From a candidate division KSB1 bacterium (GTDB lineage Bacteria; Zhuqueibacterota; JdFR-76; DREG01): DNA of 23,042 bases. The notes under the pieces are model-generated. The model was given only the letters and a program-made list of their open reading frames with translations. It made no database searches and had not been told where the DNA came from. The position numbers and the translations under genes were made by a program. Of this stretch, positions 1,022 to 18,245 are shown one piece after another (the first letter of the stretch is position 1; each line of letters begins with the position of its first letter). The stretch spans positions 1 through 23,042 of the forward strand of contig JADFJB010000078.1 in the NCBI GenBank assembly GCA_022566355.1, in the 5' to 3' direction.

Positions 1022-2563
1022 GCCATCAACAATTAAGCTGGTTGCTAATTGGAACTTAACCGTGACGCCAGATTCTATATTCAGAGTAATACCGTTTTGG
1101 ACTGTAATAGAATTCTGAACAATATAAGGACTTCCAGCTATCCAGCCATGAGATGAATCAACAAAACAAACATCATCAAAATGCAGTGTGTAACCAGTTG
1201 ATACCTTATTCCAGGTTAATCCCCCATCCATGGTTTTTAAAACCAACCCCTCATCACCAACTATCCAACCAATTAATCTATCTAAAAAAATAAGATCTCG
1301 TAATTTAAATGAAACCCCACTTTCTTGCGTTATCCAAGTTTGACCACCATCACTGGTCTTTTTTATGAGTCCGCCTCTGCCAATTCCCCACCCGACCTCA
1401 TTGTCGACAAAGTGAAGTTTAAGAATTTCAAATGGTAAATCCGAAATTTGTTTAAACCACGAAGCCCCCCCATCTGTGGTCTTTGCAATAAATAAATCTT
1501 TATTAGATGGAAAATTCGTACCAGCAACCCAACCGGTTTCTGCATCGACAAAATCAACAGTATTTAACCGATCAATGCCAGGAGCGAAAATGTTTACTGT
1601 TTTATTTTCCCAATTCCGGCCACCATCGATACTATGATTTAAACTTGACCATATTTCTTGCTGATTAATAAAAAAAGCGGATTTGTACCTCTTGGTGGAT
1701 ACCATTTCCCAATTTGTCCCACCATCTGTTGTTTTGTAAATTCCACGGTTCATCCAATCGTCGGCCAACACAATGCATGTATCAGGACTAAACGGGTATA
1801 CAATACCCGTCATGGCACTTGGCGTTTCTAACCAGCTTAAGCCGCCATCTTCTGTTCGCATTACTCTTACCAACTGGTAATCTGAATTTTCTAAACCGCT
1901 CGCCCAACCATACGTTGTATCCACTAAACTGAATTTGGTATATGCGGCAAGTGTGGAGTCACGTGTCCAGGATTGACCTCCATCAAGTGTTTTGAAGGCA
2001 AAACTTTGCCATCCCCCTATCCAGCCTCGATTGGCATCCCTGAAAGAGAGTTTAAGGTCGTATTCCCTATCATGGATGGATTGATCTTGTGCTTGCTCGG
2101 TCCAGGTATCACCACCGTCACTGGTATACCACAAATTAGAATTTCCAATAACCCAGCCAATTTTAGAATCAATAAATTGTATGTCGTGTCCTCTGTATGG
2201 AGAATCTTGAAATACTTGTTGCCAGGTGAGCCCGCCATCTTTCGTTCTATAAATACCATATTTCCTGTCGTTGAACTGATGGCTTCCGAGGCCAAAACCA
2301 GTATTTTCACTAACGAAATATATATTTGCAAATATTACATCTGTTGGAATACGTTCCCAGGATTCACCACCATTGGTTGTTTTGTAAATATTGGCAGACC
2401 TCGGTATGAAAAATCCAGTCAACTTGTTTACAAAAAGTATTTGATTGATACCATCCCCCTGCGGTTTGGGATTGAGCCATTCCCAAACTTGACTTAAACC
2501 AGGTGAAACAGAACATAATATAGTTGCAAAAAATATTGACGAGCTTAATAGTAGTTTTATCAA
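917..2563 (-). CDS. secreted YCF48-like repeat protein, C-terminus lost
   Basis: The start is TTG at 2563, with AGGAGA about 14 bp upstream; no in-frame ATG precedes it. Residues 1-24 form a signal peptide (KLLLSSSIFFATILCSVSPG). The body has ten T-x-D/N-G-G-x-x-W motifs (TTNGGESW, TKDGGLTW, TSDGGDTW, TEDGGLSW, TTDGGASW and so on), the hallmark of YCF48/BNR-type beta-propeller repeats, alternating with GWxxG motifs. Around residues 485-528 it turns into a beta-helix-like segment (NGITLNIESGVTVKFQ, then VDGSLIAQG), typical of the next domain in large secreted FCB proteins. From about residue 529 (below ~980) the frame runs antisense through the recombinase gene, so the last ~20 residues are not native. 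Probably an exported or surface protein; the sorting domain that would say which is missing. The specific role is unknown. Confidence 0.75.
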   Translation of the reverse strand: MIKLLLSSSIFFATILCSVSPGLSQVWEWLNPKPQGDGINQILFVNKLTGFFIPRSANIYKTTNGGESWERIPTDVIFANIYFVSENTGFGLGSHQFNDRKYGIYRTKDGGLTWQQVFQDSPYRGHDIQFIDSKIGWVIGNSNLWYTSDGGDTWTEQAQDQSIHDREYDLKLSFRDANRGWIGGWQSFAFKTLDGGQSWTRDSTLAAYTKFSLVDTTYGWASGLENSDYQLVRVMRTEDGGLSWLETPSAMTGIVYPFSPDTCIVLADDWMNRGIYKTTDGGTNWEMVSTKRYKSAFFINQQEIWSSLNHSIDGGRNWENKTVNIFAPGIDRLNTVDFVDAETGWVAGTNFPSNKDLFIAKTTDGGASWFKQISDLPFEILKLHFVDNEVGWGIGRGGLIKKTSDGGQTWITQESGVSFKLRDLIFLDRLIGWIVGDEGLVLKTMDGGLTWNKVSTGYTLHFDDVCFVDSSHGWIAGSPYIVQNSITVQNGITLNIESGVTVKFQLATSLIVDGSLIAQGLQSNPIIFKIDVVPSKLRLKKFGTSCSG

Positions 2564-3007
2564 TTTACTTTTCCAAATTCTCCTTTTTCATTAAATCGAA
2601 AAATATACTTTAAGTTTCCCGATTGAAAAACAATTAAGGTACAGAGTATCTTTTATTATTTTTATTACTAATTAATTACGTTAATGTCCATCAGGAAAAC
2701 CCTGAAAAATGGGTTCGAAAACCCTTAACCTGGCATCAGGAAATGGATGATTATATTAGCTATTTCCCCTGAACTATTGTAAAAGGAATGCCTATTGCGC
2801 AAAATAATTAGCCATGAACTGTTAAACCAATCACACGTTGAACTTGCAATTTACCCATCGTCTTTTCCCCAAAGTCCTGTTCAAATATCTCAGTGGTAAA
2901 TTTATTCATAGCCTATTCATTCACATCTTAGTACTTGCTTCCAGTAAGAAAAGCAAATATATTCAATAAATTTAAATGATCATTTATCAAAATAACAGGA
3001 AATAAAA
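2564..3007. other. intergenic region with three small hairpins
   Basis: No convincing gene is seen between the divergent genes. Three short inverted repeats lie close together: TCAGG/CCTGA (2691-2705), GGGTT-CGAA-AACCC (2711-2724, a perfect palindromic arm pair), and TCAGG..AAAT/ATTTCC..CCTGA (2736-2772). Read on the - strand the middle hairpin has a TTCG loop and is followed by ATTTTT, which looks like an intrinsic terminator, but no - strand gene lies upstream of it. Promoters for both flanking genes must be here; I could not assign boxes with confidence. Confidence 0.4.
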
Positions 3008-4540
3008 TTGGCTCGCCTGCACGAATATCAAGGGAAAGAATTACTAAAACAACACAAAATCTCTACTCCCCATGGCAGATTGGCAAACAGTATAGATGAG
3101 GTCGAAGAGATACTCACTGAAATAGGATTTCCCGCAGTTTTAAAGGCCCAGGTATGGTCTACAAAACGGGCGAAAATGGGAGGAATTCAATTTGCTGATA
3201 CTTTGGAAAGTGCGTTAGAAAGTGCAGAAAAACTGTTCAAATTAAAGGTGAGTCATTTCCAGGTTGATTCTGTTCTCGTCGAAGAGAAATTGGACATTCT
3301 ATCTGAGTATTATTGCGGCCTTATTATCGATGATTCAAAAAAACAACCGGTGATGATCTTCAGCAGCGTGGGGGGTAGCGGGATCGAAGAAATTGCACAA
3401 GAACATCCTGACAAAGTCAGCTCTATAGGTATCGATCCGGCTGAAGGATTTCGCAATCATCATGCTCGTAATTTGGTTCGCAAAACTGGTATATCCGGAA
3501 AACTGCAATCCCAACTTGCAGATATTCTAACCAAGTTGTACATAGTTGCGAAGAAATATGAGGCCAGATCAGCCGAAATTAATCCTATCGTCTTAACCAA
3601 AGATAACCGGCTGATGGCTGTCGATTGTCGCATTACTGTCGATGATTATGCAGTTTTTCGCCATCCGGAATTAGGCATCGAGATTGCCCGGGAGTTTGAC
3701 CGTCCGCCTTCCAAACTAGATCATATTGCTTATGATGTTGAAAAAAACGACTATCGCGGCACATTTTATTTTATTCAATTGGAGCGAGAATTTGAAAAAA
3801 GTCAAAGGTATATAGGATTCCATGGCGCAGGTGGTGGTGGATCGATGATGTCAATGGATGCGGTACTAAAGTGCGGTTTTAAGATCGCAAATTTTACCGA
3901 CACCAGCGGTAACCCACCCGCTTCGAAGGTCTATCGGGCTGCAAAAATTATCTTAGCTCAAAAAAATATCATAGCCTATTTTGGCTCCGGATCAGGCGTG
4001 GCCAGTCAGGAGCAATTTCACTCCGCCCGTGGATTGGTAAAAGCTTTTCGGGAAGAAAATTTAGCCATTCCAACCGTCATCCGTTTAGGAGGCAACCAGG
4101 AAGACCTGGCCGTTGAAATTCTGGAAAATTATACACAAGATCTGCCGGCGCCCGTGGAAGGTTACAAGAAAGATGATTCAGCTGATTTCTGCGCTGAAAG
4201 GTTGAAGACGCTTGTGGATGAATTTGATTATTCTAAAGACAGCCGAAAGAAATCAACAGTAAAAAGAGATTTTTCGGAACCCTATCGTTTTGAAACGTTA
4301 ACGGGTGAGATTACTTACGACCATGCATTATGTATGAATTGTGATTCAAAAGCATGTATTACCGCGTGCGGACCGCAAATTTTGAAATTAGAAAACAACA
4401 AACCTGTTTTAGCAATTACTACTGAGGAAGCAAAAAAAGGGAAGTGTACCGAATGCCTTGCATGCGAAATTGAATGTGAATTTCATGGTAATAAAGGTGC
4501 ATATATTTCACTTCCGATTAAAGGACTTGATGGAGCTTAA
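3008..4540 (+). CDS. succinyl-CoA-synthetase-beta-like acyl-CoA ligase fused to a ferredoxin domain
   Basis: Starts at TTG 3008 after CAGGA; MARLHEYQGKELLKQH matches the usual SCS-beta N-terminus, which fixes the start. Residues 1-235 are the ATP-grasp part: AEINP (E190, N192) and D206 in AVDCRITVDDYAVFRHP fit the Mg-nucleotide site, while the usual GGRGKAGG loop is altered to STKRAKMGG. Residues 268-372 are the CoA-ligase flavodoxin-like domain (FHGAGGGG, then FGSGSGVASQ). Normal SCS-beta stops near residue 390; here a linker and a ferredoxin-like domain follow: C442-x2-C445-x4-C450-x3-C454 and C480-x2-C483-x2-C486-x3-C490, enough for two [4Fe-4S] clusters. The family forms acyl-CoA from a carboxylic acid, CoA and ATP/GTP with an alpha subunit, encoded 27 bp downstream. 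Substrate is not known; neighbours point to a citrate-like acid. The cluster could carry electrons, sense redox state, or be structural. Confidence 0.85.
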   Translation: MARLHEYQGKELLKQHKISTPHGRLANSIDEVEEILTEIGFPAVLKAQVWSTKRAKMGGIQFADTLESALESAEKLFKLKVSHFQVDSVLVEEKLDILSEYYCGLIIDDSKKQPVMIFSSVGGSGIEEIAQEHPDKVSSIGIDPAEGFRNHHARNLVRKTGISGKLQSQLADILTKLYIVAKKYEARSAEINPIVLTKDNRLMAVDCRITVDDYAVFRHPELGIEIAREFDRPPSKLDHIAYDVEKNDYRGTFYFIQLEREFEKSQRYIGFHGAGGGGSMMSMDAVLKCGFKIANFTDTSGNPPASKVYRAAKIILAQKNIIAYFGSGSGVASQEQFHSARGLVKAFREENLAIPTVIRLGGNQEDLAVEILENYTQDLPAPVEGYKKDDSADFCAERLKTLVDEFDYSKDSRKKSTVKRDFSEPYRFETLTGEITYDHALCMNCDSKACITACGPQILKLENNKPVLAITTEEAKKGKCTECLACEIECEFHGNKGAYISLPIKGLDGA

Positions 4541-4567
4541 TAGGAATATCCACTGGATATCAATGAG

Positions 4568-5476
4568 ATGGCAATATTAATAGATCAAACTAACAAGGTT
4601 ATTGTGCAGGGGATTACGGGCCGCGAAGGCATGGCTCGTACCGAGCTGATGATGGGATATGGCACACAAGTTATTGCCGGTGTGACTCCCGGAAAAGGAG
4701 GAATGGAGGTTCTGGGAGTGGCAGTTTATGATACTGTCGATGAATGTGTGGAGAAATTCGGACAGGTTGATATCAGCGTCATTTTTGTTCCAGCTCCCCT
4801 GGTGAAAGATGCGGCTATTGAAGCTTTTGATGCCGGCATTAAATTTATTGTCATTGTTCCGGATCGGGTACCAATTTGGGATGTCCTGGAAATCGCGAGT
4901 AAAGCCAAACAAACGGGGGGAAGATTTGTTGGCCCCAATACCCTGGGTTTATTAAGTCCAGGGAAAGCAGTGCTTGGGATGATTGGAGGACGCGCAGAGT
5001 CAGCCAGGAAATGGTTCAAACAGGGGTCTGTTGGCATTTCATCTCGCAGCGGAGGAATCACCTCATCCATAGCCTATTATTTAAGCCAGGCCGGGGTTGG
5101 ACTTAGCACGATCGTCCATGTAGGTGGTGATGCCATTGTTGGCACTCCTCATCCTGATGTCATGCAGCTATTTGAAGAGGACCCGGAAACTGAAGCTGTA
5201 GTACTGTTTGGTGAAATAGGTACATCTCAAGAGGAGCAAGTTGCCGATCTCATCGAGGCTGGTAAATTTACAAAGCCTTTGGTCGCTTTTATTGGCGGCA
5301 AAGCCGCAAAAGAGGGCACGCGTTTTTCGCACGCTGGTGCAATTATTGAAGGTGGCCGGGGTACGTATGAAGGAAAAGTACGCAGGCTTCGAGAAGTGGG
5401 TGTAACCATAGTAGAATCTTTCAATGATATCCCCGAAGCAACAACTGAAGTCTTACGAAAAATCCATTCAAACTAA
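4568..5476 (+). CDS. succinyl-CoA-synthetase-alpha-like subunit
   Basis: A full-length 302-residue homolog of SCS-alpha/ATP-citrate-lyase-type subunits. The N-terminal CoA-binding Rossmann domain has QGITGREG (14-21) and GVTPGKGG (38-45). VGPNTLGLLSPG (121-132) matches the GPN-x-x-G-x-x-x-P-G loop. The phosphohistidine is H255 in FSHAGAI, and E216 in FGEIGT matches the Glu that positions it, so the catalytic core is complete. It would accept phosphate from ATP bound by the beta partner and pass it to the acid. Gap of 27 bp from the beta gene and 18 bp to the lyase gene indicates one transcript. Homologs with this fold use succinate, malate (malate thiokinase) or citrate (citryl-CoA synthetase); the sequence alone does not decide, but the following lyase favours a citrate- or methylcitrate-like substrate. 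Confidence 0.88.
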   Translation: MAILIDQTNKVIVQGITGREGMARTELMMGYGTQVIAGVTPGKGGMEVLGVAVYDTVDECVEKFGQVDISVIFVPAPLVKDAAIEAFDAGIKFIVIVPDRVPIWDVLEIASKAKQTGGRFVGPNTLGLLSPGKAVLGMIGGRAESARKWFKQGSVGISSRSGGITSSIAYYLSQAGVGLSTIVHVGGDAIVGTPHPDVMQLFEEDPETEAVVLFGEIGTSQEEQVADLIEAGKFTKPLVAFIGGKAAKEGTRFSHAGAIIEGGRGTYEGKVRRLREVGVTIVESFNDIPEATTEVLRKIHSN

Positions 5477-5494
5477 ATAAGATAGAGAAATGCG

Positions 5495-6271
5495 ATGGAA
5501 GAAAATAAGTGGCAGACAAAAATAACGAAGATTGAACCGAATCGGATTCAGATTCGTGGTTACTCGGTTGATGAATTAATGGGAAAGGTTTCATTTTCCC
5601 AGGCTATTTACCTGGTCATCAAAGGAGATTTACCCTCAAAAGAAATAGGCCAGCTTATGGATGCCATATTGGTTTCCTCAATCGATCATGGTGTTACACC
5701 GCCTTCAACGATAGCAGCTTTAACTGCTGCTTCAACCGGGGCATCGCTAAATGCTGCATTGGCTGCGGGTATTTTATCCATCAACAAACATCATGGCGGC
5801 GCTGTGGAAGGCTGCATGAAGTTTTTATATGAAATCAAAAGCTGCCTGACTGACAAGGGACTCAACACAGAATCAGCTACCATTGAGATCATCACAAGTT
5901 ATCGGGAAAATAAAAAGAGAATTCCAGGTTTTGGGCATCGATTGCATACGGAAGATCCACGCAGTGTGGCGCTTTTTAATTTATCAGACTCCTTGCATTT
6001 GTCCGGGCAATTTGTTAAAATTGCACGTTGTGCTGAAGTAAGTCTACCGGAAATTGTTAATCGGAAACTACCTTTAAATGTGGATGGTGCAATTGCGGCG
6101 CTATTATGCGAGCTTGAATTTCCAATAGAGTTGGCAAACGCCTTTTTTATTATGGCACGAGTACCTGGTTTAATATCACATATCTATGAAGAGCAGTCCC
6201 AACAAAGACCCATGAGACATATCAATTCAAAAGAAAGTGAATATAGCGGGCCGGAAAACTTAAAAATATAG
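5495..6271 (+). CDS. citryl-CoA lyase-like enzyme (citrate synthase fold)
   Basis: 258 residues, the short form seen in stand-alone citryl-CoA lyases rather than ~430-residue citrate synthases. All three citrate-synthase-type catalytic residues are visible: His in NKHHGGAVEG (H100), His in PGFGHRLH (H148) and Asp in LNVDGAIAALL (D197). The NVDG form resembles citryl-CoA lyase and the C-terminal module of ATP-citrate lyase, while citrate synthases usually have NVDF. R222 in ARVPGL and RPM near residue 238 fit the acid- and CoA-binding arginines. The expected reaction is reversible cleavage of an acyl-CoA such as citryl-CoA to acetyl-CoA and oxaloacetate. Its place 18 bp after the ligase alpha subunit fits a two-step ATP-driven cleavage. 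A Si-type synthase for another 2-oxoacid is possible. Confidence 0.8.
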   Translation: MEENKWQTKITKIEPNRIQIRGYSVDELMGKVSFSQAIYLVIKGDLPSKEIGQLMDAILVSSIDHGVTPPSTIAALTAASTGASLNAALAAGILSINKHHGGAVEGCMKFLYEIKSCLTDKGLNTESATIEIITSYRENKKRIPGFGHRLHTEDPRSVALFNLSDSLHLSGQFVKIARCAEVSLPEIVNRKLPLNVDGAIAALLCELEFPIELANAFFIMARVPGLISHIYEEQSQQRPMRHINSKESEYSGPENLKI

Positions 6272-6307
6272 CAACTGTTCAGACTGTCAAACAGGCGGAA
6301 CAGTTGC
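6271..6307 (+). repeat. intra-operon stem-loop after the lyase gene
   Basis: GCAACTGTTC (6271-6280) and GAACAGTTGC (6298-6307) form a perfect 10-bp stem with a 17-base loop that itself contains CTGT/ACAG. It begins on the last base of the lyase stop codon and sits 34 bp before the next start. No T-run follows, so it is more like an mRNA processing or stability element, or a partial attenuator, than a terminator. Confidence 0.55.
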
Positions 6308-6340
6308 AACAGAAAATTCTTATTCCAATATGAGGTTAAC

Positions 6341-6874
6341 ATGTCAGAAAACATCCTTGCAATGATTCCGGAATTTAATGAAATACGTGATCCGCAACTT
6401 CGAGAAAAATCCATTGCCGTGTGGCAAGAAGCCATGGAATATCGCAATTGGACCACTGAGGAAATAACTTCCATTCCATTTACATTACTGGTGGATAATG
6501 TAAAAATTACGTATTTAGAGCATGTCCGAACAGTCTGCAAAATGTGTATTGCTTGTGATAAAATCCTGACCGAAGCTTATGCAGAGCGGAAAACTCCTGT
6601 AAATCGTGACTATTTAATTGCCGGCGCACTGTTAGCGGATGTGGGGAAATTATATGAATATGAAAAAAAAGATGGAAAAGTCGTCAAAAGTCATCATGGA
6701 AAATATTTAAGACATCCATTTACCGGGGTGGCTTTGGGGTTCAAGCATGGCTTACCGGAAGAGGTTTTACACCTTGCTGCGGTTCATTCCAAAGAAGGGG
6801 AGGACTTTAAAAGATCGCCGGAGGCCATCATTTTACACCATGCTGATTTTATTGATTTTGAATTAGTTAAGTGA
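6341..6874 (+). CDS. HD-fold protein with altered HD motif
   Basis: 177 residues resembling HD-domain phosphohydrolases. The first His is H61 in YLEHVRTV; the motif that gives the family its name reads LLADVGKLYEYE (A99-D100) instead of HD-x-GK; later family positions are present, H125 in LRHPFTG, H149 in AVHSKEG and D169 in LHHADF. HD enzymes bind metals through H...HD...D and hydrolyse phosphoesters, often nucleotides. Loss of the middle His would weaken or remove one metal ligand, so this may be a non-catalytic regulator, or may use another His. ATG 6341 follows TGAGG. It lies between two enzyme genes of the cluster, 69 bp after the lyase and 62 bp before the dehydrogenase, so it is probably functionally tied to them. 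No substrate can be named. Confidence 0.7.
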   Translation: MSENILAMIPEFNEIRDPQLREKSIAVWQEAMEYRNWTTEEITSIPFTLLVDNVKITYLEHVRTVCKMCIACDKILTEAYAERKTPVNRDYLIAGALLADVGKLYEYEKKDGKVVKSHHGKYLRHPFTGVALGFKHGLPEEVLHLAAVHSKEGEDFKRSPEAIILHHADFIDFELVK

Positions 6875-6936
6875 TTGATTTAGATTAGACTATCAGAGTT
6901 GAAATGAACCTATAAATACGGAGCCATTGAAAAACG

Positions 6937-8049
6937 ATGTATAAAATTGCAGTTCTTCCCGGAGACGGTGTCGGCAAAGAGGTAATGGAGGCGGCATTAC
7001 TTGTTTTAAATAAAATGAATTTCGAAGCAGAATATAAATATGGAGATATTGGCTGGAAGTTTTGGTGCAAAGAAGGGTGTCCATTACCGGACCGGACTAT
7101 TCAATTGCTAAAAGAGACGGACGTCTGTTTGTTTGGAGCCATTACTTCCAAACCAAAAGAAGAAGCCCAGATGGAGCTTATTCCGGAATTACAGGACAAA
7201 GGGCTGGTTTATAGCAGCCCAATTGTGGGACTCAGGCAACTGTTTAACCTGCACACCAATTTACGGCCCTGTAAAGCGTTTGCGGGTAATCCTTTGAATT
7301 ATCGTGACGGTATTGACCTGGTCGTATTCAGAGAAAATACCGAAGATCTTTATGTTGGAATCGAATATCATCCACTGCCTGCGGAATTAATGGAAGTTTT
7401 AAATACGACACACCCTAAAATGAAAAGGTTTGCCGACGTTCCATTAGAAGATATTGCCATTTCTTTGAGACTGTTGACTCGAAAAGGATGTCAAAGTATC
7501 GCCCGGCAAGCATTTAATTATGCAAAAAAACATGGTTACAAGACAGTAACAGTCGTAGAAAAACCAAATGTGGTGCGCGAAACCAGCGGATTGATGGTGC
7601 GCGAAACCCGCAAGATTGCGAAAGATTTTCCCGGCATTGATTTGTGGGAGGCAAATATCGATGCGATGACAATGTGGCTGGTTAAGAATCCGCAGGATTA
7701 TGGTATTCTGTTATCTACCAACATGTTCGGCGATATCATATCCGATCTCAGCGCTCAACTTGTGGGTGGGTTAGGATTTGCCAGCAGCGGAAATATTGGC
7801 GATAACTATGCCGTGTTTGAACCGACTCATGGCTCGGCACCCAAATACGCAGGTCAGTATAAAGTCAATCCTATGGCAATGTTACTGACAACTAAGTTGA
7901 TGTTTGATTACCTGGGTGAAAAGCAACACGCTGAGGTATTGGAAAAAGCGATCGGCAGAGTGATTCAGGAAGGTAAAGTTAGAACTTATGATATGGGCGG
8001 TAACAACAGTACAATGGAAGTCGCTGAAGCAGTAGCTAATTATTTGTAG
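6937..8049 (+). CDS. isocitrate/isopropylmalate-type dehydrogenase
   Basis: 370 residues, full length for the beta-decarboxylating dehydrogenase family. Visible sites: LPGDGVG (7-13); R100, R110 (NLRP) and R132 (FRENTEDLYVGIEY, with Y139) for the carboxylates; K209 in VEKPNVVR; D242, D266 and D270 (NMFGDIISDL) for the metal. HGSAPKYAGQYKVNP (299-311) has the K303-Y304 pair typical of NADP-dependent isocitrate dehydrogenase of the E. coli type, so NADP is favoured. The substrate loop reads S94-P95-I96-V97-G98-L99-R100: the Ser of isocitrate dehydrogenases is kept, but the Asn two residues on is Ile, so the exact substrate (isocitrate, a homolog or methylisocitrate) is open. The reaction is oxidation and decarboxylation of a 2-hydroxyacid, reversible in principle. 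Its 3' end is duplicated downstream. Confidence 0.85.
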   Translation: MYKIAVLPGDGVGKEVMEAALLVLNKMNFEAEYKYGDIGWKFWCKEGCPLPDRTIQLLKETDVCLFGAITSKPKEEAQMELIPELQDKGLVYSSPIVGLRQLFNLHTNLRPCKAFAGNPLNYRDGIDLVVFRENTEDLYVGIEYHPLPAELMEVLNTTHPKMKRFADVPLEDIAISLRLLTRKGCQSIARQAFNYAKKHGYKTVTVVEKPNVVRETSGLMVRETRKIAKDFPGIDLWEANIDAMTMWLVKNPQDYGILLSTNMFGDIISDLSAQLVGGLGFASSGNIGDNYAVFEPTHGSAPKYAGQYKVNPMAMLLTTKLMFDYLGEKQHAEVLEKAIGRVIQEGKVRTYDMGGNNSTMEVAEAVANYL

Positions 8050-8286
8050 TAGCACCCTGAGCGATCAGTAGAGTGATTCGGGAAGTGAAGTTAGAACTTA
8101 TGATATGGGCGGTGACAATACCACAATGGAGGTCGCTGAAGCAGTAGCTAATTATTTGTAGTAGCACCCTGAGCGATCAGTAGAGTGATTCGGAAAGGTG
8201 AAGTTAGAACTTATGATATGGGCGGTGACAACAGCACAATGGAGTTCGCTGAAGCTAGTAGCTAATTATTTGTAGTAGCACCCTGA
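7948..8286 (+). repeat. three tandem copies of the dehydrogenase gene tail (~113 bp each)
   Basis: Copy 1 (7948-8060) is the last 34 codons of the dehydrogenase plus 11 bp after its stop. Copies 2 (8061-8172) and 3 (8173-8286) repeat it with substitutions and small indels. Each copy ends with TAGTAGCACCCTGA and the next begins with GCGATC. Copies 2 and 3 share changes against copy 1 (for example GATCAGTAGAG for GATCGGCAGAG, and GGTGACAA for GGTAACAA), so copy 3 came from copy 2 or the reverse, after the first duplication. The indels break the frame, so copies 2 and 3 are not translated. They fill the space between the dehydrogenase and the PrpD-like gene. Confidence 0.93.
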
Positions 8287-8302
8287 GCGGAGTCGAAGGG
8301 TG
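8279..8302. repeat. REP-like palindromic element
   Basis: CACCCT (8279-8284) and AGGGTG (8297-8302) flank GAGCGGAGTCGA, giving a small hairpin. The motif CCCTGAGCGGAGTCGAAGGG is, from general knowledge, a widely scattered intergenic repeat in many bacterial genomes. Its left half (CACCCTGAGCG) is also found at the end of tandem copies 1 and 2, where the right half has been replaced by dehydrogenase sequence. Confidence 0.65.
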
Positions 8303-8329
8303 TTGATGCGAAAAAGGTAAGGGTTATCA

Positions 8330-9709
8330 ATGGACACAATTTCAAGAAAATGGGCTCAATTCACAACGAAATTACAATATGAAGATTTGCCGAAAAATGT
8401 AGTCGATGAAGTAAAGCGATTCTTATTTGATACCATTGGTTGTGCTTTGGGCGGTTACAAAGTTGAAGATGCTGAAATATTTATCGAAGTGCTAAAAGAA
8501 TCAGGGGGAACGCCGGAAGCCACTGTCATTGGTTCCGGAGATAAGACTTCGGCGTTCAATGCCACCTTAGCCAATAGCTTAATGGTTCGGGCAATGGATT
8601 ATAACGATATTTACTGGAAAGAAGACCCGAGCCATCCGAGTGATATTATTCCGGCGGCCTTGTCTCCCGGTGAAGTTCAAAAATCTACCGGCAAAGAAAT
8701 CATAACAGCCATCGTCCTGGCTTATGAATTTGAGCAGCGATTATGCGAATTTGCAAAACCGGGCATTCGGGAAAGAAAATGGCACCATGCAACCCTTACG
8801 CAATTTGTTTCACCGCTGGTTGCCGGTCGAATTTATGGACTTTCTGAAAATCAAATTGTCAATGCGATTGGCATTTCGGCGTGTCACAATTTTACTCCGG
8901 GCGTCGTTGCTGCCGGCCATCTCACAATGATGAAAAATACGGTGGATCCCCTGGCGGTACAATCCGGTGTTTTGGCTGCCCAATTAGCAGCAAAAGGCTA
9001 CGTTGGTCCGGAAGCGATCTTTGAAGGCAAGGAAGGTTTTGTCGATACTTTCGGCGGTGAATTCGATCTGGATATTTTGGTCGATGGCCTGGGTAACAGC
9101 TATCGAATTCTTGAATGTTCCATGAAAGCCTTTCCTGTCGAAGCATTGTCACATGCCCCGATTTCCGCAACTTTATCCTTGATGCGGGATAATCAATTGC
9201 AGCATTCGGACGTCGAAAAAGTAATTGTCAAAGTAACCCATCGTGCCAAGGACATCCTTGCCGATCCGACAAAATACAATCCAACCAGCAAGGAAACAGC
9301 CGACCACAGTCTGCCATATGTGATCTCCGCAGCGGTGGTTTCGGGTAAAATTACGCCGGAAGAATTTAGTAAAGCCAAAATTATGGATCCGGATATTCGT
9401 GCTATGCTGCCCAAAATTGAGGTTGTAGCTGATGAGAAAATCGAGAGTGTATTCCCTCGTTTAAAAGCGGCGGATGTTGAAATTCAACTCAAGAATGGCA
9501 AATCATTTACCAAATGGATTGATTATCCAAAAGGCGACTACCGAGCGCCCATGTCCGAAGAAGAACTATTGACCAAATTTCACAGCCTGGCTGATCCGGT
9601 TATGACGAGAAATTGCCAGGAAAAGATTGGCGAAATGATCTGGAATTTAGAAACTGTGCCGGATATTGGCCAGTTGATGACAAATCTTAAATCTGATGTA
9701 GCTGAATAA
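8330..9709 (+). CDS. MmgE/PrpD family dehydratase
   Basis: 459 residues, the normal length for 2-methylcitrate dehydratase/cis-aconitate decarboxylase relatives. Visible family sites: MDYNDIYWKEDPSHPSD with D90, D93 and H102; WHHATLTQF (H152/H153); MMKNTVDPLAVQSG (K202); and SMKAFPVEALSHAPISA (K266), which is closer to PrpD (FK-x-x-FPAE-x-H) than to the KxYP of itaconate-forming decarboxylases. PrpD enzymes dehydrate or hydrate citrate-like acids without an Fe-S cluster, and E. coli PrpD is known to have weak aconitase-like activity. Here it could link a citrate-type and an isocitrate-type acid for the dehydrogenase upstream. ATG 8330 has AAGGTAAGGG before it. It is the last gene of the cluster; no clear terminator follows. 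An epimerase or decarboxylase role is the alternative. Confidence 0.82.
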   Translation: MDTISRKWAQFTTKLQYEDLPKNVVDEVKRFLFDTIGCALGGYKVEDAEIFIEVLKESGGTPEATVIGSGDKTSAFNATLANSLMVRAMDYNDIYWKEDPSHPSDIIPAALSPGEVQKSTGKEIITAIVLAYEFEQRLCEFAKPGIRERKWHHATLTQFVSPLVAGRIYGLSENQIVNAIGISACHNFTPGVVAAGHLTMMKNTVDPLAVQSGVLAAQLAAKGYVGPEAIFEGKEGFVDTFGGEFDLDILVDGLGNSYRILECSMKAFPVEALSHAPISATLSLMRDNQLQHSDVEKVIVKVTHRAKDILADPTKYNPTSKETADHSLPYVISAAVVSGKITPEEFSKAKIMDPDIRAMLPKIEVVADEKIESVFPRLKAADVEIQLKNGKSFTKWIDYPKGDYRAPMSEEELLTKFHSLADPVMTRNCQEKIGEMIWNLETVPDIGQLMTNLKSDVAE

Positions 9710-13370: not shown

Positions 13371-13943
13371 ATGAAAAAGAAAAATGAAAAGAAACTAGCT
13401 GATCTGTTAATAAAAGCCCAGTCAGGAAATCGTGAATCACTTCAAATGTTATGCAAAGAATTAGAGGGATTTATACGTGGTTATTTTAGGCTAAAATTTA
13501 AAAATGATGAGATCGTAAATGACCTTTGTCAAGAAACTTATATAAGGTTTCTTAAAAGTATTTTGTTGGTCAGAGACAGAATGAAATTAAAAAGTTTTGT
13601 TGCAAAAGTAGCGTTGCACGTAATGCAAGACTATTTAAGACAGAAATATCGGTTAAGGGAAGAAAGTCTGGAAACGTCTTCTAAATCTAATGAAGAACAA
13701 GGAAAAATAAAGACGGAAGTTTTGCAACTTCTTACTGATGATTTCGATGGCCAGAGTATATTGAATAATATCGATTTATATAGAGCTTTCGATCAATTGT
13801 CTGAAAAATCAAGGAACATTTTGATGTTAAGGACCAAAGGACTTGACTATAAAGAGATATCTGCTAAGACCGGACTTTCGATTAGCGGCGTTAAGATGCA
13901 AATGAAAAGAAGCATAGAGCAATTAAGGTTAATTCTATTCTAA
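13371..13943 (+). CDS. ECF-type RNA polymerase sigma factor
   Basis: 190 residues with a sigma-70 region 2 at about 25-95 (NDEIVNDLCQETYIRFLKS, then KLKSFVAKVALHVMQDYLR) and region 4 at about 130-188 (AFDQLSEKSRNILMLRTKGL, then DYKEISAKTGLSISGVKMQM), the helix-turn-helix that reads the -35 box. Regions 1 and 3 are absent, as in ECF factors. ATG 13371 has no evident Shine-Dalgarno site, common in this type of genome. It is followed after 82 bp by a membrane protein with zinc-finger-like motifs and then by the TPR-CHAT gene, so it probably controls those genes and perhaps its own promoter. Its target promoters cannot be read from this window. Confidence 0.88.
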   Translation: MKKKNEKKLADLLIKAQSGNRESLQMLCKELEGFIRGYFRLKFKNDEIVNDLCQETYIRFLKSILLVRDRMKLKSFVAKVALHVMQDYLRQKYRLREESLETSSKSNEEQGKIKTEVLQLLTDDFDGQSILNNIDLYRAFDQLSEKSRNILMLRTKGLDYKEISAKTGLSISGVKMQMKRSIEQLRLILF

Positions 13944-14025
13944 GTGACCTTTTATTTCATTAATTCGACTCTATATCTAGAACTTAATTCATCGAAAAAT
14001 TAATGAAAAAAAAGAAAGGGTTGAA

Positions 14026-15060
14026 ATGGATAATTGTTCGTGCGTATATGAAAAAGTAATATTCTTTAATGAGGTTAATGAAAATGAACGACAGAAAATT
14101 AAAAATCATGCGGATAATTGTAGTTCGTGTCATAAGGTTTTGCAACAAGTGGGAATAATTATGACTTCTTTGGATAGAGACATTAATCAACATTCCGTTG
14201 ATGACGAACTTCTTCTTCGTTATAGTATCTATTTATCAGCGCCAAAAGAAGCGGATTACGACGGGAGAAAATTAACTCAATCCGAAATTGCGAATATTCG
14301 AGATCATATTGCCGGCTGCGGCGCATGCAGGAATAACGTGGAACAGTATTGTCAAGATTTTCAAGAAATTGAAGAATACTGGGAGAGAGAAAAACTTCCA
14401 TCTTTGATGCTTAATCCTAAATTATTATTTGAAACTCTCAATCAAAGAATGGCTGGATTTCTGAAAAAAGTTGCTAACTATAACCCGTTTATTTTCAAAC
14501 CGAGATTCTTTCCTATTGCACTTGGGACATCAGTTCTTGTAATCCTATTATGGGTTGGACCATTTTTTCGAGGGGATCAGATTCTGTACAATCAGTTAAC
14601 ATCTTTGGATGAGGTTTCGTTATTAACACGAAGTAGCTTGCCCGATCCTTTGAGTGAGGCCCTGTCTGCTTTTCATGAATCCAACTATAATCAATCAATT
14701 CAGGATTTGGAGAGCTTTATCTCTAGCAACACATCAGGCCCTTCGCTGTTCTATGCCCATTATGTATTGGGAATCTGTTATCTTTATGAAGCGCAAAGCG
14801 ATTTTTTAGGGCGATTTCGAATATTTAATGCTATGTTAATTAACAAAGGAATTCAAAATTTTGAACGTGCCAGTGTTTTATCCGGGAATCCTGGAATTGA
14901 AGAGGATTGCCTTTGGTATATCGCGAAAGCTTTTATAATGAAAAAAGAAGAAGAGAAGGCTATACAAACCTTTGAAAGTATAATTCGTTTTGAAGGTAGG
15001 AGATTTAAAGAAGCCAAGGAAGCTTTGAATAGTATTGCCAGTTTGATGAATATTCGATAA
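14026..15060 (+). CDS. membrane protein with two zinc-finger-like motifs and a TPR-like tail (putative anti-sigma factor)
   Basis: 344 residues. The cytoplasmic part has two H-x3-C-x2-C motifs, H28-C32-C35 (NHADNCSSC) and H94-C98-C101 (DHIAGCGAC), the pattern of zf-HC2 anti-sigma factors; two in one protein suggest a duplicated zinc-binding domain. C4 and C6 could add ligands. A single transmembrane helix lies at about 162-181 (FPIALGTSVLVILLWVGPFF). The outer part (about 205-340) has helical, TPR-like repeats (ALSAFHESNYNQSIQDLESF, then AKAFIMKKEEEKAIQTFESI). Gene order sigma factor - zf-HC2 - CHAT and the 29-bp gap to the CHAT gene suggest it restrains the sigma factor and passes a signal from outside, perhaps through TPR-TPR contact. 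Anti-sigma activity is inferred. Confidence 0.75.
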   Translation: MDNCSCVYEKVIFFNEVNENERQKIKNHADNCSSCHKVLQQVGIIMTSLDRDINQHSVDDELLLRYSIYLSAPKEADYDGRKLTQSEIANIRDHIAGCGACRNNVEQYCQDFQEIEEYWEREKLPSLMLNPKLLFETLNQRMAGFLKKVANYNPFIFKPRFFPIALGTSVLVILLWVGPFFRGDQILYNQLTSLDEVSLLTRSSLPDPLSEALSAFHESNYNQSIQDLESFISSNTSGPSLFYAHYVLGICYLYEAQSDFLGRFRIFNAMLINKGIQNFERASVLSGNPGIEEDCLWYIAKAFIMKKEEEKAIQTFESIIRFEGRRFKEAKEALNSIASLMNIR

Positions 15061-15089
15061 GCATTACAAACCATCTTTGCTGCAATTTT

Positions 15090-18000
15090 ATGACAAAAGT
15101 AAAACGATTGAGAGCAGCATTTTTGGGGATGATTAACGGGTTAATTTTCTTGACCTTGTCTATGCAAGGGTCTGCCTTTTCACAGGTAAACAGTTCCGGT
15201 CAAACTTATTATTTGAATGCTCTAAAAATGGTAGGGGAAGGAGATTATGACGGTGCTATATCCCGGTTTAAACAAATAATCCAAAAATCGCCTGATTTTT
15301 CCGAAGGCTTCCGGAAACTGGTAGAAACTTATATTTTTACAAATGAATATGAATCAGCACAGGTTTACTTTGAAAAATTACTCCACGAAGGTATCAACCA
15401 ACCTGCTGTTCTTTATAGTCTGGCTCGAATTGATTTTGCCAAGAAAAACTATGATGGAGCAATTCAAAAGTTAAAAGAAGTTGTCAAACTAGATCCCAAA
15501 TTTGCTGATGCGTATAGTTACAGAGGAGGACTACCGGAAGTTTATAATGCAAACAATGATTTGGATACTGCCATGGGATTTTTTTCCGAGATGGTCCAAA
15601 AAGATCCGGAAAATGCATGTGCCTATTATGGTCTCGCTCGAACCCATCTGAAAAGGTACGAGTGGGATGCCGCATTAGAATTGCTGTCCAAGGCAATCGA
15701 GCTTGATCCGGAATTTACTATCGCCTACCATTCTATAATTAATATTTATTTTTCCACGAGTAGGTATAATAAGACGCTCGAATTTAGTAAGGAACTCCAA
15801 TCAATTGCCGAAAGGGTAAATGACCTTGAAATGTTATCCTATTCAACCATGATGATCGGCACTACTTATTTTCTGACAGGTGACTATTTGAATGCTTTGT
15901 ATTACTTAAATGAAGCATTAAAAAAAGCTAAAAACATCGGAGACAAACGGCGAGAAGGAAACTGTATCAATAACATCGCCGCTGTTTACGCAATGTCGGG
16001 AAACTATCAAAAATCCACAGAATATTTTAAAAGGGCATTATTCTTATCCCAAAAAATCGGAAATAATTCAACTGTTGTTCGAGCACTTGTTAACATCGGC
16101 AATGTTTACAAGGATCAAGGCAGTTTTGATCAAGCGCTTGAATACTACAATAAAGCTTTGGAAATGTCTAAAATGAACACATTAAAATATTTAGAAAGTG
16201 CAACCCTTTCCAGCATGGCTGAAGCATACCAGGAAAAAAAACAATTTATAAAGGCCCTGGCTTTTCAGAATTATGCGCTTGAAATCGCTAAAGAAATTGA
16301 AGAAAAATCACAAGAAGGTTATATACTAAAAAGTCTTGGGAAGCTTCACATGGACTTAGGGAAATTTCATGACGCCTCAAAATATCTGAAGGAGGCACTT
16401 GCGATTGGTGAATCGATTCAGGATGTTCAAACCATTTGGGAATCGCAAGCCGGATTAGGTTCTTGCTTCGCCAAACAGGGGAATATACAACAGGCAATCA
16501 CATACTACGCAAACGCAATTTCAATCTATGACTCAGTTAGGAGTAATCTTAACATTGAATCACTTGGTAATAACTTTCTGGAAGACAAATATGAAGCCTA
16601 CCCCGCTATTGTTCAGCTTCTTGCCCAGAACGGAAAATATGATGAAGCATTTGTTTATGTAAATAAATATAAGGCCAAAGCTGTATTAGATGTTCTTTTT
16701 CAGGGTCAGAATTATTTATCCGAATTGTTGCCTGAAAATATAAGAATTCAATTGAATGAAATTACCGCCAATCTTGAGGCCATGCACAATGAGCTTTCAC
16801 AAGAATTGTCTATGTCCGAGAAAGATAATGAAAAGGTCCTCACATTGGATCAACAAATAACTGGTTTGGAGATCAGAAAAGCTGCTATTGTTGAAGATTT
16901 AAAAAGACAACACCCACAATACTATCAGCTAACCTCACAAAAAGTCCTGACAATCAAAGACATCCAGGAAAGAATTTTAGGAAAAGGACAAGCTCTGTTG
17001 CAATACATCGTCGGACCGGAAGAATTGTCGCTGTTTGTTGTAACTTCTGACACCTTCAATTATACTCAAGTACCGGTTAGTCGGGATAGCATCCATTCTA
17101 TTTTAGCAGAATTGAGTCCTATTTTTAGCGATAAAGCAAGAAAAGACCGATTTCAGATTCTTAATCCACAAATTGCTGACTTTAGCATTTCTCCAGCTTA
17201 TCGTCTGTTTGAAATTCTCATCAAACCCGTAGAATCTTGGCTTCAAAATACAAAGGAATTAATCGTCGCGCCTGATGACATCTTGTACTATTTACCCTTT
17301 GAAATGTTGGTCTATGATACTACCAAATCAGAAACTGAATACGATTTAGAGAATGCCAAGTTTCTGTTGGAGAAATATGAAATTTCTTATGTGACGACCC
17401 CTGATCAGGTTGATAAAAGCCTGCAAAAAACAAGAAAGCCAAATAAGGGAATATTAGCTTTTGGTAATCCGGATTTTGATTCTGAGGAAGATTTGGAAAT
17501 GGTGCTTGTAACGTCGGAAATGTCATCTACACAGGGTATTATGAGAGGAGAAAAACTGGCAAAGCTGCCAAATTCTGAGGTAGAAGTAAGAGAAATTGGC
17601 AAGGCTTTTGGAGGGACAGGAAACAAAATTCTGGTTGGAAATGAAGCCACAGAAGAATATCTCAAAGATCATGCCGCAGATTACAGAATTCTTCATTTTG
17701 CCACACATTTCCTCATCAATGATGACCAACCGCTATATTCCAAAATTGTGTTGGCTCAGAATAGCAAGTCGAAAGAAGATGGTTACTTGCAAACATATGA
17801 AGTCTTTAACATGAAATTGAATGCTGATTTAGTGGTCTTGAGTGCATGCAACACAGGATTGGGTAAAATAAGAAAAGGGGAGGGAGTGATTGGCATTTCC
17901 AGGGCTTTTTTATATGCAGGTGTACCAAGTCTCCTGGCCAGTTTATGGAGTGTGGATGACCAATCAACTGCAATAATTATGAAGAGCTTTTACAAGTATT

Positions 18001-18245
18001 TACAATCTGGCTCCAATAAAAGGCAGGCACTTAGCCTTGCTAAACTCGATTATTTCAAGTCCGCCAAAGGGATAAAGAAAGATCCGTTTTATTGGGCGCC
18101 TTTTATCTTAATGGGAGATTGGACTTCTATAGATATGGAAACGAAGGCCGACAAACCAATCGGTATGATGATTCTATTGGGATTTTTTGTTACGATTACA
18201 GTATTGTGGCTTTACAGAATCAGAAAACGCGTTTCTAATAACTAA
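15090..18245 (+). CDS. exported TPR-CHAT (caspase-like) protein
   Basis: 1051 residues. An N-terminal signal sequence (RAAFLGMINGLIFLTLSMQG) is followed by about ten TPR units from 38 to 485, for example YDGAIQKLKEVVKLDPKFAD, YQKSTEYFKRALFLSQKIG and FDQALEYYNKALEMSK. A helical linker (540-615) leads to a CHAT domain (about 630-1010): VAPDDILYYLPFEML, then RILHFATHF with catalytic H873, and ADLVVLSACNTGLG with catalytic C920, then GISRAFLYAGVPSLLASLWSVDD. Both dyad residues are present, so it should be an active cysteine protease of the caspase-like clan. A C-terminal membrane helix (1023-1042) is followed by a basic tail (RIRKR), so the TPR-CHAT part is predicted outside the inner membrane with the tail inside. 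Last gene of the sigma set. Substrate unknown; the membrane regulator upstream is a natural candidate. Confidence 0.88.
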   Translation: MTKVKRLRAAFLGMINGLIFLTLSMQGSAFSQVNSSGQTYYLNALKMVGEGDYDGAISRFKQIIQKSPDFSEGFRKLVETYIFTNEYESAQVYFEKLLHEGINQPAVLYSLARIDFAKKNYDGAIQKLKEVVKLDPKFADAYSYRGGLPEVYNANNDLDTAMGFFSEMVQKDPENACAYYGLARTHLKRYEWDAALELLSKAIELDPEFTIAYHSIINIYFSTSRYNKTLEFSKELQSIAERVNDLEMLSYSTMMIGTTYFLTGDYLNALYYLNEALKKAKNIGDKRREGNCINNIAAVYAMSGNYQKSTEYFKRALFLSQKIGNNSTVVRALVNIGNVYKDQGSFDQALEYYNKALEMSKMNTLKYLESATLSSMAEAYQEKKQFIKALAFQNYALEIAKEIEEKSQEGYILKSLGKLHMDLGKFHDASKYLKEALAIGESIQDVQTIWESQAGLGSCFAKQGNIQQAITYYANAISIYDSVRSNLNIESLGNNFLEDKYEAYPAIVQLLAQNGKYDEAFVYVNKYKAKAVLDVLFQGQNYLSELLPENIRIQLNEITANLEAMHNELSQELSMSEKDNEKVLTLDQQITGLEIRKAAIVEDLKRQHPQYYQLTSQKVLTIKDIQERILGKGQALLQYIVGPEELSLFVVTSDTFNYTQVPVSRDSIHSILAELSPIFSDKARKDRFQILNPQIADFSISPAYRLFEILIKPVESWLQNTKELIVAPDDILYYLPFEMLVYDTTKSETEYDLENAKFLLEKYEISYVTTPDQVDKSLQKTRKPNKGILAFGNPDFDSEEDLEMVLVTSEMSSTQGIMRGEKLAKLPNSEVEVREIGKAFGGTGNKILVGNEATEEYLKDHAADYRILHFATHFLINDDQPLYSKIVLAQNSKSKEDGYLQTYEVFNMKLNADLVVLSACNTGLGKIRKGEGVIGISRAFLYAGVPSLLASLWSVDDQSTAIIMKSFYKYLQSGSNKRQALSLAKLDYFKSAKGIKKDPFYWAPFILMGDWTSIDMETKADKPIGMMILLGFFVTITVLWLYRIRKRVSNN

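Follow-up and report, generated by a model that had tools for sequence, protein, structure and literature searches.

The window analysed here is a stretch of 23,042 nucleotides from a candidate division KSB1 bacterium, and is the whole of contig C78 in a metagenome-assembled genome of 4.6 Mb that is 98.5% complete. This genome is labeled G000; other G numbers stand for genomes, and L numbers for loci or contig stretches. Positions 3008 to 9709 of the window carry six consecutive open reading frames on the + strand, and these genes are our subject. A preliminary description of the window had listed the frames and their families, and family matches confirm all of them. The first gene, ligB (3008..4540, 510 amino acids, TTG start), encodes the beta subunit of an ATP-grasp, SucC-like acid-CoA ligase (family match 6e-51) with a C-terminal ferredoxin-like domain (4310..4522), and ligA (4568..5476, family match 3e-90) encodes its SucD-like, CoA-binding alpha subunit, with a phosphohistidine at His255. 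Next come ccl (5495..6271), for a short lyase with the citrate synthase fold, of the citryl-CoA lyase (CCL) type; a gene for an HD-domain protein (6341..6874); icd (6937..8049, Iso_dh match 5e-86), for a beta-decarboxylating dehydrogenase of the isocitrate or homoisocitrate type; and a prpD-like gene (8330..9709) of the MmgE/PrpD dehydratase family (5e-68).

The start of ligB at a TTG codon is supported by its relatives, since the N-terminus MARLxEYQGK is conserved among them. The AlphaFold model of the protein has a pLDDT of 90.9, and its SCS-like part matches structures of succinyl-CoA synthetase (SCS), citryl-CoA synthetase (CCS) and ATP-citrate lyase (ACL). Over its full length ligB is closer to the SCS of Thermus than to CCS (223 versus 136 bits), while its C-terminal half, searched alone, finds first the large CCS subunit CcsA of Hydrogenobacter thermophilus, at 56 bits, where the best SCS reaches 50: judged by these comparisons, ligB is a mosaic of SCS-like and CCS-like parts. 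The motifs GGGGS, ANFTD and GNPPA are common to ligB and CcsA, and their counterparts in SCS read GAGL, ANFLD and GGxxx; in the ligB of L037, the threonine of ANFTD is a cysteine. The phosphohistidine of ligA is invariant (58 of 58 aligned residues), and the pair has what is expected of the CCS type, namely a separate SCS-like alpha/beta ligase with an ATP-grasp part and a phosphohistidine.

The ferredoxin-like domain, which the preliminary description had missed, spans approximately residues 435-505 of ligB. Its match to Pfam is weak (Fer4_7), and it contains eight cysteines in two motifs, C442-x2-C-x4-C-x3-C (Cys442, 445, 450 and 454) and C480-x2-C-x2-C-x3-C (Cys480, 483, 486 and 490). All eight are invariant in the ten ligB proteins of the same phylum and in 37 sequences of many phyla, a pattern with which the domain probably holds two [4Fe-4S] clusters.

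The lyase is easier to place. It passes the NCBIfam citryl-CoA lyase model NF004869 with 259 bits, for a cut-off of 212, and its best solved relative is the CCL of H. thermophilus (6hxp, 7e-58). The three catalytic residues claimed in the preliminary description are present as His100, His148 and Asp197, and this His/His/Asp set is invariant across operon lyases, Hydrogenobacter CCL and citrate synthases. In the tree, the operon lyases fall inside a clade of 56 rows, supported at 96/94, that also holds the H. thermophilus enzyme, which however sits there on a long branch with CoA-transferase-associated proteins. The suggestion that ligase and lyase form a citryl-CoA synthetase/lyase pair gains support from likeness to both CCL and CcsA.

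The signature KYxGxYKV, of NADP type, is present in nearly every icd protein long enough to cover the site. The protein of the window retains Ser113 of the Escherichia coli isocitrate dehydrogenase, and the position of Asn115 is an isoleucine, as in the homoisocitrate dehydrogenase of Thermus. A role of icd in a methylcitrate pathway was considered and rejected: 2-methylisocitrate has a tertiary alcohol, and so is not oxidisable by enzymes of this class. Between icd and the prpD-like gene, the interval 8059..8290 (+ strand) repeats the 3' end of icd in two degenerate copies, each about 112 bp long, also absent from the preliminary description. Depending on the register, they are 67-93% identical, and they are apparently non-coding remnants of tandem duplication.

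The prpD-like protein stays far below the NCBIfam cut-offs for PrpD (65 versus 458 bits, and 107 versus 950), and it lies closer to IDS epimerase and to cis-aconitate decarboxylases, the latter being the best matches among solved structures. At the position aligned with the active-site histidine of cis-aconitate decarboxylase, His277, all 15 operon PrpD-like proteins have a glutamate.

The model of the HD protein has a pLDDT of 93.7, and its nearest solved fold is the HD domain of YhaM, with a Z score of 16.5; we rejected the idea of reading a role from this fold, as the likeness gives no substrate. In the clade of the window, the histidine of the HD dyad is replaced by alanine or cysteine (alanine in the window) and a CxxC motif is gained; the dyad is intact in WOR-3, Aminicenantes and some other operons. 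Two types can be told apart among loci L040-L117: LLADVGK or LLCDVGK with a CxxC after the first histidine, and LLHDVGK without CxxC. The residues suggest that the two types reflect a switched metal site. As for function, regulation or housekeeping of CoA intermediates would be our guess.

We now turn to the conservation of this arrangement. Among 59 relatives searched, a close homolog of ccl is found in ten, G000 included, and the order ligB-ligA-ccl-HD is kept in all ten; icd and prpD follow wherever the contig extends far enough. The order ligB-ligA-ccl-HD-icd(-prpD) recurs at 53-80% protein identity in relatives, and also in other phyla. The gene arrangement is well beyond chance, it is a conserved operon, and the proposal that these families stay together across genomes is borne out.

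A wider scan of 84,980 species genomes (GTDB, one per species), with the C-terminal half of ligB as query, yields 358 loci with the ligB signature. We detailed the best 80, which are the most similar ones, so that frequencies may not hold for all 358. They span more than ten phyla, with labels that include KSB1, Marinimicrobia, Cloacimonetes, Gemmatimonadetes, Zixibacteria, Acidobacteria, Chloroflexi, WOR-3, Hydrothermota, Aminicenantes, Coatesbacteria, Deltaproteobacteria and Deinococcota (Trueperaceae). For 42 of these 80 loci, at least 8 kb of sequence is available downstream: looking up to 9 kb from ligB along its own strand, we find ligA at 38, ccl at 37, HD at 24, icd at 17 and prpD at 12; aconitase-family genes occur at 13, and at four ligB is alone. 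In related operons, an Fe-S enzyme of the homoaconitase/aconitase family is inserted between HD and icd, and in Anaerolineae ligA and ccl are fused into a single protein of 570-610 amino acids.

The neighbours of the operon vary with the phylum. In that of the window they include genes for the E1 alpha and beta subunits of pyruvate dehydrogenase (PDH), lipoamide dehydrogenase, lipoate ligase, complex I and an aconitase-family large subunit. In Deltaproteobacteria, ligB-ligA-ccl is preceded by genes for a 2-oxoacid:ferredoxin oxidoreductase (best match the 2-oxoglutarate type, below cut-off), a flavoprotein like those of fumarate reductase or succinate dehydrogenase, and fumarase. L064, L068, L093 and similar loci of Anaerolineae have, unlike other phyla, genes of the ADP-ribosylglycohydrolase family and of a sugar-type ABC transporter upstream of ligB. 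A divergent cluster in L038 (G020, 1520-7847) holds a distant homolog of the HD protein (37%), two aconitase-family large subunits, a LeuD-type protein, an HDOD protein and a CCL-like protein of 361 amino acids.

Citrate synthase was sought in 50 operon genomes, with alanyl-tRNA synthetase (AlaRS) as a control for completeness. It is full-length in 31 and not in 17, and two more have fragments only. The control is missing or fragmentary in five of the 50; among the 45 with AlaRS, citrate synthase is absent in 15. Three Chloroflexota without citrate synthase, G085, G092 and G098, have no intact PF00330 and PF00180 genes besides those of the operon; G082 and G101 have one further PF00330/PF00180 pair, with a LeuB-type gene nearby. 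In genomes of the first type, the operon must link acetyl-CoA and oxaloacetate to 2-oxoglutarate, unless 2-oxoglutarate comes from elsewhere.

We consider it fairly probable that the operon provides a route, by way of citryl-CoA, between citrate and acetyl-CoA plus oxaloacetate, with enzymes leading onward to 2-oxoglutarate. Gene content, conserved order, catalytic residues and the eight cysteines are all read directly in the sequences; that citrate is the substrate, we infer. CCL would join acetyl-CoA and oxaloacetate as citryl-CoA, or split it, and the ligase LigAB would release citrate and CoA from citryl-CoA while making ATP from ADP and Pi, or work in the opposite direction. An aconitase-family enzyme, the PrpD-like protein, or both, would carry out the dehydratase step, and the NADP-type dehydrogenase would then yield 2-oxoglutarate and CO2. 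Every step would in principle be reversible. The ferredoxin-like domain may tether the ligase to the ferredoxin pool, or let that pool gate it. In the organism of the window, the route would probably run in the oxidative direction, as an alternative to citrate synthase that conserves ATP, because the operon has PDH, lipoamide dehydrogenase, lipoate ligase and complex I as neighbours in the phylum and no pyruvate:ferredoxin oxidoreductase is seen in G000. For ATP-citrate lyase, oxidative operation is reported in Desulfobacter postgatei (Moller 1987, cited in PMC9768450).

Several observations weigh against this proposal. G000 has a citrate synthase (C9), an AcnA of 908 amino acids (C32) and two more genes of isocitrate dehydrogenase type (C2 and C15), and it also has SucC (C42); the operon is consequently, in this genome, a second route or added branch beside an ordinary set for the tricarboxylic acid (TCA) cycle. 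The preliminary description had held such a set, combined with operon proteins inactive on tricarboxylates, to speak against its own reading: of this combination, the genes are present. In ligB, the second arginine of the CCS motif VVRR, presumably a citrate contact in ACL (VVRR/VRR), is a leucine, as in SCS, in all ten proteins of the phylum. The best NCBIfam model for icd is AksF2, a homoisocitrate dehydrogenase, although below cut-off (335.7 versus 540 bits), and aconitase-type enzymes of 650 amino acids found in related operons exceed the cut-off of the homoaconitase model TIGR00139 (670-890 versus 530 bits). In the tree, the CCL of H. thermophilus sits on a long branch with CoA-transferase-associated lyases. 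On the complete Coatesbacteria chromosome of G074 (CP070633.1, L070), ligB-ligA lies beside a major facilitator superfamily transporter, and no citrate-synthase-fold gene was found chromosome-wide. Finally, we found no experimental structure or assay of operon proteins.

It is thus natural to ask what else the operon could be. It could cleave citrate as part of a reductive TCA cycle of the Hydrogenobacter kind, serving CO2 fixation or anaplerosis. The closest characterised enzymes are indeed the CCS/CCL pair of that cycle, icd is of NADP type, a ferredoxin domain would suit ferredoxin-linked metabolism, and genes for a 2-oxoacid:ferredoxin oxidoreductase and a fumarate-reductase-like protein adjoin the operon in Deltaproteobacteria. 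We nevertheless hold this to be unlikely: G000 has one substantial POR_N gene, for a 2-oxoacid:ferredoxin oxidoreductase of 611 amino acids, and no pyruvate:ferredoxin oxidoreductase of about 1200 amino acids was seen there; the neighbours in the phylum are PDH and complex I; and full-length citrate synthase is kept in most of the 50 operon genomes.

A homocitrate version of the pathway accounts for the two model matches just mentioned, and for the isoleucine at the Asn115 position of icd. In it, CCL would join acetyl-CoA and 2-oxoglutarate, the ligase would free homocitrate with gain of ATP, the PrpD-like and homoaconitase-like proteins would share its isomerisation, in two half-steps, before icd leads to 2-oxoadipate. 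In fungi and Thermus, the first dehydration of the pathway calls for an enzyme other than homoaconitase (PMC3556520), a possible job for the PrpD-like protein, and a full citrate set already exists in G000. However, the only PF00330 gene of G000 is AcnA and no HacAB-type gene was found in that genome, no lysine-pathway gene appears among the annotated neighbours, those in Deltaproteobacteria are TCA genes, icd misses the AksF cut-off, and in G085, G092 and G098 the operon has the only intact aconitase and Iso_dh family genes. We regard this version as improbable.

We give little credence to the idea that the ligase is one for succinyl-CoA or another dicarboxylate, with the lyase acting on a separate substrate. 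The full-length similarity of ligB to SCS, its leucine and the Coatesbacteria chromosome would fit, as would G016, which has no other SucC; but a separate SucC exists in the remaining nine of the ten operon genomes of the phylum, the ligase fails the SucC and SucD cut-offs of NCBIfam (257 versus 376 bits for ligB, 302 versus 353 for ligA), a conserved GSGSGVASQEQ block replaces the SCS substrate loop, and ligA and CCL can be fused. Equally doubtful is a PrpD-like protein that replaces aconitase and makes the branch self-contained and free of Fe-S, as first proposed: in the window, L041, L044, L047 and L049, among others, ligB is indeed followed by prpD without any aconitase-family gene, but the best solved relatives of the PrpD-like protein are cis-aconitate decarboxylases rather than PrpD, G000 has AcnA, related operons carry Fe-S aconitases, the ligase has its eight conserved cysteines, and both kinds of gene occur together in five of the 12 prpD-carrying operons with at least 8 kb downstream (L043, L092, L099, L110, L113), which rules out an obligatory replacement.

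Returning to the citryl-CoA route, a bolder proposal can be made tentatively: that it is a widespread, ATP-conserving oxidative entry into the cycle, with a ligase gated by, or wired to, the ferredoxin pool, and that some uncultured Chloroflexota form citrate by this route alone, the phylum of the window having it as a second route under redox control. The TCA cycle is defined by the step that makes or cleaves citrate, and in genomes this step usually serves as the marker of reductive or oxidative operation. If heterotroph-like phyla do contain a large, apparently undescribed family of citryl-CoA ligases fused to ferredoxin, predictions of autotrophy based on such markers would be misled; the family would also mean an ATP-conserving entry into the cycle and possibly a direct redox switch on citrate metabolism. 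The operon suggests, too, a way in which some lineages could do without citrate synthase.

Some observations lie aside from this argument. A contig scan with CCL as single-protein query gave no match, nor did a viral contig scan with the HD protein, and plasmid searches returned generic SucC and CoA-transferase-associated lyases only. Three plasmid loci of Sinorhizobium, Paracoccus and Burkholderia (L201, L202 and L203), which served as contrast set only, contain annotated citryl-CoA lyases without two of the three catalytic residues, next to CoA-transferase, ring-cleavage dioxygenase or acyl-CoA/biotin-carboxylase genes; their annotation is doubtful. In G000, a gene like those of isopropylmalate or isocitrate dehydrogenases is interrupted by a TAA codon (C7, 30420-31392), and a LeuC-type gene was not found in this genome either, a hint that leucine synthesis was lost. 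Elsewhere in the window (13371-18245), translations of open reading frames give, in tandem, a sigma-factor-like gene, a zinc-finger/TPR protein and a TPR protein of 1051 amino acids with a CHAT-like C-terminus.

We found no description of a ferredoxin-fused citryl-CoA ligase or of the six-gene operon in the open-access literature, which does not prove that none exists. Known systems share parts of it. The methylcitrate (PrpC/PrpD/AcnB) and alpha-aminoadipate pathways also combine a PrpD-family dehydratase with an aconitase-family hydratase, and the homoaconitase and homoisocitrate dehydrogenase models are matched; however, the operon has no PrpB-type or homocitrate synthase gene, a lyase and a ligase take the place of the synthase, and G000 lacks HacAB. 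ATP-citrate lyase (AclAB of Chlorobium limicola and Methanothrix) has the same folds, and the LigA-CCL fusion of Anaerolineae resembles its alpha subunit AclA (617 amino acids in 6hxj), whereas in the window ligase alpha and lyase are separate, sequence similarity is weaker (4e-23 for ligB against 6hxj_A), and ligB has the ferredoxin domain. In the Planctomycetes OTU-14 and DG20, uncharacterised CCS-CCL genes, separate or fused and annotated as SucCD and citrate synthase, are reported to stand midway from CCS-CCL to type II ACL (2017, PMC5459899); compared by description only, the portion of that report concerned mentions neither a ferredoxin fusion nor an operon with HD, icd and PrpD. Closest are CcsAB and Ccl of H. 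thermophilus, with a two-subunit ligase, a separate short lyase, the same catalytic residues and the motifs GGGGS, ANFTD and GNPPA. The window operon differs from them by the ferredoxin domain on the large subunit, the leucine for the second arginine, an ATP-grasp part nearer to SCS, its HD, icd, PrpD-like and often homoaconitase-like genes, and hosts that mostly keep citrate synthase. By its sequences, the operon would work like CCS/CCL and appears to be built as a variant of it, rather than as a strict member, since one residue of the substrate motif differs.

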